A stretch of 64,000 bases of DNA from positions 1,612,001 to 1,676,000 of the forward strand of contig NZ_CP007595.1 of the NCBI RefSeq assembly GCF_000785535.1, written 5' to 3'. The notes beneath the pieces were generated by a model, which was given only the letters and a program-made list of their open reading frames with translations, did no database searches and was not told where the DNA came from. The position numbers and the translations under genes are program-made. Below are positions 17,241 through 57,208 of this stretch, piece after piece (the first letter of the stretch is position 1; each line of letters starts with the position of its first letter). This stretch comes from Arthrobacter sp. PAMC 25486. Its GTDB lineage: Bacteria; Actinomycetota; Actinomycetes; Actinomycetales; Micrococcaceae.

Positions 17241-17261
17241 GTGGAGATGGGGAGAATTGAA
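17241..17261. repeat. attL: left copy of the 21-bp att core
   Basis: The 21 bp starting GTGGAGATGGGG and ending AATTGAA are identical to 56845-56865, and flanking bases differ on both sides. The right copy is the acceptor/T-arm end of ssrA, so this one is the duplicated half created by integration. Confidence 0.9.
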
Positions 17262-26621: not shown

Positions 26622-26815
26622 CCCGCGATTTGTGTTGCCACTCCTGCCGCGGTCCGCTCGGCCTGTGTGTCAAGCGTGACTGTGCCCATCACATCAAGAA
26701 GCAGGCCACAGAAGACCGTGATGACCGCAGCCTGCGCCTCTACCATGACCCGACCAGCCGCCAAGCCATCAACAACGTGACCCGCCGCCGTAGGACTCGT
26801 GGGAGGCGGCGGTGA
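26618..26815 (+). CDS. Small zinc-binding-like protein (65 aa)
   Basis: GTG 26618 overlaps the previous stop. The N-terminus has a CCHSC, C, DCAHH pattern that could hold zinc, and the C-terminus is very basic (RRRRTRGRRR), as in nucleic-acid binders. The next gene's GTG overlaps its TGA. Confidence 0.5.
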   Translation: MTRDLCCHSCRGPLGLCVKRDCAHHIKKQATEDRDDRSLRLYHDPTSRQAINNVTRRRRTRGRRR

Positions 26816-27078
26816 GCGGGTACGCGCATGGCGAGTCGCGTGCCCGTGCTGCCGAAGTGATCGTGTCGAACTCCCGAGTCGAAGCGGCAGGCATCATCAC
26901 CCAATCCGAACACCAAGCAGCCGCAATCATCCGACGTGCACATAACCACGCCAACCGCATCGAAAACAGTGCACGGGAGTATGCAGCCTCACTTGCGCCT
27001 GATCGGGCTAAGGCTGACCCAAGCCTGTACCAAACACTCATGCAAGAACGATACGGAAAACCCAAGAAAGGAGGCTGA
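26812..27078 (+). CDS. Helical hypothetical protein (88 aa)
   Basis: An almost entirely helical, Ala/His/Arg-rich protein (ARAAEVIVSNSRVEAAGIITQ, heptad-like) ending in a basic tail. The GTG start overlaps the upstream stop. It precedes the replication gene by 3 bp, and its end carries that gene's AAAGGAGG ribosome site. Confidence 0.55.
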   Translation: MSGYAHGESRARAAEVIVSNSRVEAAGIITQSEHQAAAIIRRAHNHANRIENSAREYAASLAPDRAKADPSLYQTLMQERYGKPKKGG

Positions 27079-27081
27079 CTC

Positions 27082-28041
27082 TTGGCACGCGACAGAGCGA
27101 ACATCAACACGAATATCTGGACGGACACGCACTGGCGACAACTAACACGTGATCAGCAGTGGCTGTACAAGCTGATCCTGACTCACCCGGAGCTGTCCTA
27201 TGCCGGAGTGTCCGATTGGCGCCCTGGTCGTCTCATGCAGTTCTCTGCTGGCACGTCACGGCAGGAGATCGAGCGAATCGGCGCTGAGCTACAGGCTGAG
27301 CGGTTCATCCTCATTGATGAGGACACGGAAGAAGTTCTGATCCGGTCCTTCCTGCGCCATGACGGGATCTTGAAGCAGCCGAAATTGACCGTATCAATGG
27401 TGAACGCTTACGCCGCGGTGGCTTCAAATAATATCCGCGAAGTGATTGTTTATGAGCTCGCCCGGTTGCATAAAGAGGCGCCGGAAACTAAAGCTTTTGA
27501 GAATCCTAAGGTGCTTGCTCTATTGAAGCATCCGGCCCGCCCGATGGAGGACTTTACCCAAGGGTTTACCCCTAGCTTTACCCTTGACGTTACCCCTGCC
27601 TTTACCCCAAAGCTGAGTCAAGCCCAGGCCCTGCCTACTACTACAGCTACTACTACAGCTACATACCCCCTTACGGGGGTATCCGCTTCTGGCGAGGTTG
27701 AGCGTGAAGCTGGCAGGACCGGGACACGCATCCCCAAAGGATTCGCAGCGACCGCGCAGATGATCGCCTGGGCTTTGGAAAATACCCCCAATATCAATTG
27801 GCAATCTTCTACCAAGAAATTCAAAGCCCACTACAACAGTGCTGCCGGTCCAGCCCAATTCAAAACTGATTGGGAATCTGCATGGCAGTCATGGCTGCTC
27901 GGTGATCAAGAGCGCGCCGAAACCCGCCCGCAGCAATTCAAGACCGCAGCGGAACGGAAGCTTGACGCGGGCGCCGCCATGCATGCCAAGTACTCGGCCA
28001 TCGAAGAACAAAACCAACTCGCCCTCGAAGGAGGACCATGA
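27082..28041 (+). CDS. Phage replication initiator (winged-helix, lambda-O-like)
   Basis: 319 aa. The N-terminal winged-helix-like domain (about 10-100: NIWTDTHWRQLTRDQQWLYKLIL onward, in parts, and IRSFLRHDGILKQPK) resembles phage replication proteins. A Thr/Pro-rich linker (about 155-200) encoded by the iteron array follows, then a DnaD/C-terminal-like helical domain (about 215-285) with NWQSSTKKFKAHY. The TTG start has a very strong AAAGGAGG. The downstream overlapping gene would be the helicase-loader partner. Expected role: recognises the embedded origin and recruits host helicase. Confidence 0.75.
   Translation: MARDRANINTNIWTDTHWRQLTRDQQWLYKLILTHPELSYAGVSDWRPGRLMQFSAGTSRQEIERIGAELQAERFILIDEDTEEVLIRSFLRHDGILKQPKLTVSMVNAYAAVASNNIREVIVYELARLHKEAPETKAFENPKVLALLKHPARPMEDFTQGFTPSFTLDVTPAFTPKLSQAQALPTTTATTTATYPLTGVSASGEVEREAGRTGTRIPKGFAATAQMIAWALENTPNINWQSSTKKFKAHYNSAAGPAQFKTDWESAWQSWLLGDQERAETRPQQFKTAAERKLDAGAAMHAKYSAIEEQNQLALEGGP
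27553..27682. other. Candidate phage replication origin: iterons and dyad inside the initiator gene
   Basis: Five copies of TTTACCC (the fourth GTTACCC) start at 27553, 27565, 27577, 27589 and 27601, exactly 12 bp apart. They are followed by two 12-bp copies of TACTACTACAGC (27636, 27648) and a dyad, ATACCCCC-TTAC-GGGGGTAT, at 27663-27682. The sequence just upstream (about 27424-27535) is richer in A/T. This layout resembles the lambda origin inside gene O. Confidence 0.65.
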
Positions 28042-28472
28042 ACCTGCCCGACACTGTCGCGTTTCTGACCTGGCTTTCCCAGCATGACGCACGCATCCAA
28101 GTCACGGATGCTGAGGTGGAGATCTGGCAATACACGCTATCCGTCATCCCGACGCAGAACGTCAAGGATGCTGCGTTGGAGTTTTACCGGATCAGTGATG
28201 ACAAGAAGCCCTCACCAAACGCGATTCGGAAGATTGCTTATGAGATCCGGGACCGGGCCGCTGCGAAACAGTCCGCACTCACGGCCGGTCCCACGGTGGT
28301 GAACCCGAATGGTTTCAAGCAGTCGGACCCGGACCGGTGGGAAATGCTCGTCAGTCAAGGCGCCGAGGAACACCGGCAGAAACTCCGGGCACGCGGCATC
28401 ACGCCCCACAACGAAACTTGCCCCAGCCATCGGGCCGACCCGCAACGGTCGGCCTTTTCCATGCCCAACTAG
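28038..28472 (+). CDS. Putative helicase loader / replication partner (144 aa)
   Basis: The helical N-terminal domain (VAFLTWLSQHDARIQVTDAEVEIWQ) with AALEFYRISDDKKPSPNAIRKIAYEI resembles the small replisome loaders of actinophages and Gram-positive phages. The C-terminus is basic. Four-nt coupling to the initiator gene supports joint function. The 3' end contains the terminator at 28433. Confidence 0.55.
   Translation: MNLPDTVAFLTWLSQHDARIQVTDAEVEIWQYTLSVIPTQNVKDAALEFYRISDDKKPSPNAIRKIAYEIRDRAAAKQSALTAGPTVVNPNGFKQSDPDRWEMLVSQGAEEHRQKLRARGITPHNETCPSHRADPQRSAFSMPN
28433..28458 (+). terminator. Intrinsic terminator inside the 3' end of the loader gene
   Basis: GGCCGACC, CGCAAC loop, GGTCGGCC, then TTTT. 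It lies before the stop codon at 28470-28472, so the last codons also form the hairpin. It separates the replication block from the small-gene operon. Confidence 0.8.
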
Positions 28473-56844: not shown

Positions 56845-56865
56845 GTGGAGATGGGGAGAATTGAA
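56845..56865. repeat. attR: right copy of the 21-bp att core inside ssrA
   Basis: Identical to 17241-17261. It forms the T-arm/acceptor 3' strand of tmRNA, which therefore stays intact after integration. Confidence 0.9.
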
Positions 56866-57208
56866 CTCCCGTCCGATGTTGTGTTGTCAGGGCTTCTACG
56901 GGTGTAGTTTGCGGCGGTTTTTCTCGGCCCCAGCTGTCTCGCAAACAAGCAGCTGCCAGGCCCAGTTGTATAAGAGTCCCCTAAGTGCCTACAACAAGAA
57001 CTTAGAGCAGTGGCCCTCTAAATGACGCCAGGATCCGGGACGAGAGCATTCCCGGGCTGACGGACTGTCTTACTGCTTAGGCAGCAAGAGCGAAGTCAGT
57101 GCGATTTGAGTCAGCACTTGTGTTTTACAGAGATCGTTTACGAGATAACCCTGTATCCTCGACCCGCTTCACCTGTCTCGACTAACACCGTCGAAACCGA
57201 TCATCCCC
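56846..57208 (-). ncRNA. ssrA: tmRNA (transfer-messenger RNA)
   Basis: 363 nt on the minus strand. The 5' end GGGGATGATCGG pairs with the 3' CATCTCC plus discriminator A; CCA is not encoded and must be added. The tag frame (57115 down to 57077) reads ADSNRTDFALAA followed by TAA. GGTTTCGACGGTG near the 5' end and TTCAATTC near the 3' end are standard. tmRNA with SmpB rescues stalled ribosomes and tags the nascent protein for proteolysis. The prophage occupies its 3' end without damaging it. Confidence 0.97.

Follow-up and report, generated by a model that had tools for sequence, protein, structure and literature searches.

A candidate replication origin of iterons, a hexamer tract and a hairpin inside the initiator gene of an Arthrobacter prophage

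The window analysed here, 64,000 nt of Arthrobacter sp. PAMC 25486 DNA (contig NZ_CP007595.1, positions 1,612,001 to 1,676,000), contains an initiator gene (27082–28041, plus strand) whose interior carries a set of origin-like repeats. The gene starts with TTG and encodes a 319-aa protein that matches phrog_3171, "replication initiation protein", over most of its length (E 7.5e-59; residues 1–293 against profile positions 1–279 of 331). The protein has no Pfam match at E 0.01, and hence no match to the replication protein O family or the RepA_N domain. Its N-terminal domain (27082–27561), the putative iteron binder, contains a winged helix at about residues 10–94 in the AlphaFold2 model, and the VIA-align rows for these residues are in the majority winged-helix proteins. 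The C-terminal domain (27715–28038) varies as a module 3′ of the candidate origin in some relatives. Between the two domains, the model predicts a disordered linker (residues 161–211, 27562–27714; predicted local distance difference test, pLDDT, <50), which is coded largely by the candidate origin DNA.

Three elements follow one another along this DNA: iterons, a CTACNN hexamer tract, and a hairpin dyad. The five 12-bp iterons (27550–27609, plus strand) read, in order, GACTTTACCCAA, GGGTTTACCCCT, AGCTTTACCCTT, GACGTTACCCCT and GCCTTTACCCCA. They share the core [T/G]TTACCC, and the cores begin at 27553, 27565, 27577, 27589 and 27601, a step of exactly 12 bp. An earlier note, made from the sequence of the window, had described five TTTACCC-type iterons with this step, and they are indeed there, the core at 27589 being a GTTACCC variant. 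The array rests on the sequence itself, a repeat search, a synonymous-codon test and the keeping of its period in relatives, and gives the strongest 12-bp self-similarity in the 64-kb window (34/48 positions; runner-up 31/48). A spacer (27610–27634, plus strand, GC content 0.64) leads to the hexamer tract (27635–27662, plus strand), in which five CTAC stand in phase on a G-poor top strand. Two 12-bp copies of TACTACTACAGC, which the same note had listed as a feature of their own, are present at 27636–27647 and 27648–27659, but are better described as part of this 6-bp CTACNN tract. The hairpin element (27663–27682), to which no strand is assigned, is formed by ATACCCCC (27663–27670), the loop TTAC, and GGGGGTAT (27675–27682); on the bottom strand the loop reads GTAA. 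Folded as DNA, the dyad reaches −7.5 kcal/mol on the top strand and −8.1 kcal/mol on the bottom strand (z −3.45 and −3.50, respectively).

For comparison, the peptide of this stretch was recoded synonymously 20,000 times, with local codon usage. The 34 period-12 matches (mean of recoded sequences 26.5) were attained in 0.13% of trials, the five iteron cores (mean 0.47) in 0.005%, and the 8-bp dyad stem (mean 3.4) in 0.025%, while the tract score of 16 (mean 12.7) was attained in 1%. The preference for TTT over TTC that had been remarked on for Phe in the array is also borne out: all four Phe codons of the array are TTT, whereas nearby genes and the remainder of the initiator gene use 9 TTT and 27 TTC.

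Relatives of the initiator were collected from loci of the same genus, family and order, from viral contigs, from a class-wide sample, and from genome contigs (3 loci), together with 22 of the 307 phage records that matched. By tblastn, the initiator family is present in these 307 records, a count in which one phage can appear more than once; 130 of them are named for Mycobacterium, 121 for Gordonia, and 47 for Arthrobacter. Among the matches listed, many relatives are labelled merely as hypothetical or helix-turn-helix proteins. Several related phages have Arthrobacter sp. ATCC 21022 as their host. An N-domain profile (alignment A1) matched 164 sequences, and 86 non-redundant ones were kept after leaving out those with regions <300 nt or redundant in the domain. 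When 300 nt from N-domain model position 140 onward were scanned for periods 7–30 (ties shared), the best period was 12 in 46.0/86 relatives and 24 in 22.5/86. The check for conserved 12-bp phasing that the earlier note had proposed thus gives 12 or 24 in 68.5/86. The period-12 score was not matched by any of 100 dinucleotide shuffles in 72/86. Strongly hexamer-periodic windows were omitted from the array consensus analysis because the hexamer tract adds to the lag-12 signal. With these omitted, 69/86 relatives have arrays scoring at least 36 of 48, and the 12-bp consensus contains ACCC in 39 of the 69; the idea that the iterons are wholly lineage-specific was dropped on this count. Some arrays are of other types, for example the TATGCC-type units of relative L044.

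In coding arrays, the first base of ACCC falls on codon position 1 in 12 cases, on position 2 in 17 and on position 3 in 5; therefore, one DNA word is read as FTP, as DPSV or NPSV, or as LPQ or EPFP. In five relatives, whose initiator gene is shorter, the array lies past the stop codon of the initiator (L058, Mufasa8; L065, Hirko; L066, EastWest; L068, King2; and L108, an unannotated contig). No gene is annotated over the King2 array, and those of Hirko, EastWest and Mufasa8 are partly or fully overlapped by small or hypothetical genes. Since the 12-bp period continues beyond the stop codon, the code does not impose it; a likelier cause is the distance at which initiator molecules bind. The synonymous array test could be applied to 77/86 relatives, with the coding part alone scored in L065, L066, L068 and L070, where array or tract lies past the stop; it gives a mean z of 2.06, with 43/77 at ≤0.05 and 2/77 below zero. 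The repeats thus recur at the DNA level across related phages, regardless of reading frame or initiator-gene cover, a natural case of a cis site conserved while the overlying reading frame changes. The synonymous-codon tests, the occurrence of ACCC in all three codon phases, and the arrays past the initiator stop together support selection on the origin stretch at the DNA level, as the note had suggested.

The hexamer tract also recurs. At least three CTAC in hexamer phase are found in the regions of 32/86 relatives and in 0/1720 shuffled regions, and other relatives have CTCCNN or CAACNN tracts instead. Periodicity of 6 bp (≤0.01) is present somewhere in a 330-nt region in 63/86 relatives, and 45 of these 63 have ≤3 G in 30 nt. 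The tract is strand-biased, because 30-nt windows with 0–1 G on the initiator coding strand occur in 48/86 relatives, whereas those with 0–1 C occur in 9/86. Within the host genome (4.59 Mb, a single contig), four consecutive CTACNN units are found at two places, both of them phrog_3171-family initiator genes, and a reversed control pattern has one match. In a homology-free scan, the fourfold tract was matched in 17/197 family genomes, and many unrelated tract cases appeared in viral contigs among the matches listed (80 of at least 120 loci). Of 169 tracts examined from these two sources, six have both a stem of at least 6 bp and a period-12 score of at least 24: the window and three known relatives (L171, L301, L310 and L228), and two long low-complexity repeats (L176 and L274). 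Since just 6/169 combine these properties, the tract alone is not diagnostic. No unrelated initiator with such an origin was found among the 169 tracts.

The hairpin was examined at the tract ends of the 32 relatives with at least three phased CTAC, a definition of the tract that is independent of the hairpin. A perfect stem of at least 6 bp stands there in 21/32, against 15/649 control windows of the same regions. These 21 hairpins have 13 different stems, including ATACCCCC (the window), CAGATATTCC, CTAGACCTTC, AGAGAGCAC and ACTACTTC, while the closing pair is C-G in 20/21. The bottom-strand loops are GAA (6), TTTA (5), GTTA (3), GTAA (2), and TTTAT, GTA, GATA, TTCA and TAG (1 each); DNA hairpins with a GNA or GNNA loop and a C-G closing pair have unusual stability. 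Microbacterium phage MoxS-R1 has its tract and hairpin in a stretch free of annotated genes, and a 7-bp stem is likewise present at the end of the CAAC tracts of two relatives, L021 and L024. On the sequences compared, the dyad, which the earlier note had recorded as an 8-bp stem, is a recurring hairpin with changing stems that is not universal. As a separate observation, GGTTACGTAAG stands 3′ of the tract in 12/86 relatives in a constant frame (peptide GYVS). Its carriers are L055, L056, L060, L078, L116, L120, L124, L127, L130, L134, L147 and L151; the named ones are William and Ruthy (Gordonia phages) and Whack (a Rhodococcus phage), and the sequence is also present in WillSterrel, a Mycobacterium phage whose row is redundant. 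The Arthrobacter genome itself holds a second phrog_3171-family initiator gene (L013, G000:C1:196321-197220), which presumably belongs to another prophage; a hairpin and a CTACTG tract are present there too, but its upstream repeat unit differs from that of the window.

We conclude that 27550–27682 is very probably the prophage's theta-type replication origin, placed inside its own initiator gene. In the mechanism we propose, the winged-helix N-domain would bind the iterons side by side, 12 bp or about 1.1 turns apart, and the initiator–iteron complex would open the adjoining tract, for which we propose the role of opening or single-strand recognition element. The initiator would hold one strand of the tract sequence-specifically, a role that host DnaA may take instead in those lineages that have a DnaA box. 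The hairpin would fold on the freed strand and mark the loading place of helicase or primase, and the exchangeable C-domain would recruit the host replisome. With the origin in the linker, the cis site and the factor acting in trans would stay together on a single module that can be exchanged.

Several observations weigh against assigning an origin here. The tract has a GC content of 0.43 and the gene's lowest-GC 40-nt windows lie elsewhere, leaving no clear AT-rich unwinding stretch, and no DnaA box is found near the site. A perfect stem of at least 6 bp is missing from 11/32 CTAC-type relatives (one has 5 bp) and from all ten true CTCC-type tracts, and none is seen by eye in the close relative L002. 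Synonymous recoding attains the stem in >5% of trials for 9/20 coding hairpins, so part of the stem pairing can derive from the peptide. Independent hairpin events number fewer than 21, because the six GAATGC cases come from near relatives, as do several ATCTTC cases; more generally, the relatives' counts are not independent events, owing to shared descent. In the synonymous array test, 34/77 relatives miss 0.05. Direct-repeat arrays, moreover, often have control roles, and repeats in an initiator gene could be an operator.

Among other explanations, we regard it as rather unlikely that tract and hairpin form a primase or primosome site, with the phased CTAC as primer starts and the hairpin as a landmark, as in single-strand origins. 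The position of the hairpin directly 3′ of the tract is in keeping with this, as is the folding of both strands in all five hairpins tested. In addition, 13/21 bottom-strand loops are GAA, GTTA, GTAA, GTA or GATA, loops that fit stable DNA minihairpins. However, the preference of primase for CTA is a Firmicutes trait that may not hold for the hosts of these phages, and 11/32 CTAC-type relatives lack a stem of at least 6 bp.

It is unlikely that the tract is instead an element of the DnaA-trio type, opened by host DnaA rather than by the phage initiator. The DnaA-trio of bacterial oriC is described, in the parts of the source drawn on here, as a repeated 3′-(G/A)AT-5′ (PMC10797057). The window tract has short phased repeats close to this GAT type: its bottom strand, 3′-GATGATGATGTCGATGATGATGTC-5′, resembles the motif and matches it in most triplets. 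Furthermore, the DnaA box TTATCCACA lies shortly 3′ of the tract in five relatives, exact in L021, L070, L104 and L106 and with one mismatch in L024, where the sequences suggest that host DnaA may help. In contrast, the window has no such box at the site, and among the 86 relatives it stands behind the tract in these five alone. What recurs is a six-base unit (CTACNN, CAACNN or CTCCNN) rather than a triplet. Among relatives, neither the CAAC nor the CTCC tracts match the motif, and the CTCC tracts misfit GAT.

An operator or autoregulatory array bound by the initiator or a repressor, with the origin elsewhere, is very unlikely. The array does lie within an early operon, as such an operator might; however, it stands mid-gene or past the stop rather than at the gene start, the tract and often a hairpin come after it in an origin-like layout, and a similar arrangement serves as the origin in lambda O and in pSK41 rep. 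That the array is repetitive at the protein level alone, a Thr/Pro linker of low complexity with tandem codons that mimic iterons, is scarcely credible and was rejected as a sole account: the stretch does code a predicted disordered linker with 4-residue units, a period that is a multiple of 3 is natural for coding repeats, and the relatives short of significance in the synonymous test fit it, but the window's own synonymous tests, the presence of the ACCC core in every codon phase and, in five relatives, beyond the stop codon, and the recurrence of period and core under varying peptides (FTP, LPQ, DPSV, NPSV, EPFP) argue against it.

The origin reading finds parallels in known systems. In lambdoid phages, according to the relevant sections of PMC7466680, ori lies in the middle of gene O, with four initiator-binding iterons beside an AT-rich opening region. 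The likeness to lambda ori drawn in the earlier note holds in layout, since here too origin-like iterons lie within an initiator gene, next to a proposed opening region, if the site is the origin we take it to be. In contrast to the AT-rich region of lambda, the window has a 12-bp period, a CTACNN tract and a hairpin, and its initiator has no Pfam match. In the staphylococcal RepA_N plasmid pSK41, the origin lies inside rep and the linker is dispensable; the window site is likewise within the initiator gene and over a linker, predicted to be disordered, but its initiator shows no RepA_N domain by sequence. For mycobacteriophages Miko, Rachaly and Jeeves, a RepA-like gene and its flanks suffice for replication, and the cis site is presumed to be in or beside the gene (PMC7157519, in the sections drawn on here). 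For the cluster A RepA phages, the authors report in those same sections no repeat motifs in the stretches they examined, from the tail genes to parS-L. The window does have repeat motifs; the comparison is by description and implies no kinship of RepA with the phrog_3171 family. TrfA of RK2 and RepE of F bind their iterons as duplex DNA and also bind a single strand of the opening region, as described in part of PMC4081077, and it is by analogy with them that we propose one-strand recognition for the window tract. Those origins have AT-rich 13-mers and DnaA boxes, whereas the window has CTACNN hexamers and a hairpin.

The principle of an origin inside its initiator gene is not new, because it is established for lambdoid phages and pSK41. 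As far as literature searches show, this type of origin is new for the phrog_3171 family. A wider proposal, which we put forward tentatively as possible but not probable, is that a previously undescribed three-part origin serves a widespread actinobacterial phage family, inside or behind the initiator gene. Its parts would be 12-bp, often ACCC-type iterons, a strand-biased CTACNN-like tract, and a hairpin of constant position and C-G closing pair but drifting stem sequence. In such an origin of a double-stranded phage, the hairpin on the opened strand would have a function of its own, for instance to mark where primase or helicase is loaded. If recognisable, a signature of these three parts would let such origins be predicted from sequence.

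The surroundings of the gene point to a prophage. The 21-bp repeat GTGGAGATGGGGAGAATTGAA occurs at 17241–17261 and 56845–56865, 39.6 kb apart, and the second copy lies at the 3′ edge of the transfer-messenger RNA (tmRNA) gene (56845–57208, minus strand). This repeat pair, with one copy at the tmRNA gene edge, suggests a prophage of about 17.2–56.9 kb inserted in ssrA, of which the repeats are likely the attachment sites. Around the candidate origin, the initiator gene is accompanied by genes encoding a YqaJ-type exonuclease, a RusA resolvase and a single-strand binding protein. The gene following the initiator (28038–28472, plus strand, 144 aa) overlaps its end; the product has weak PHROG matches to families of unknown function and no NCBIfam match above cut-off, and to call it a helicase loader is only a guess. 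Relative to the window initiator, that of L002 is ~84% identical in the N-part and unrelated in the C-part, while the alignments of L005 and L023 are confined to the C-part. This switch directly 3′ of the candidate origin resembles a joint at which replication modules have recombined. Directly 5′ of the initiator gene, 26812–27078 encodes an 88-aa protein with a weak DivIVA match below cut-off.
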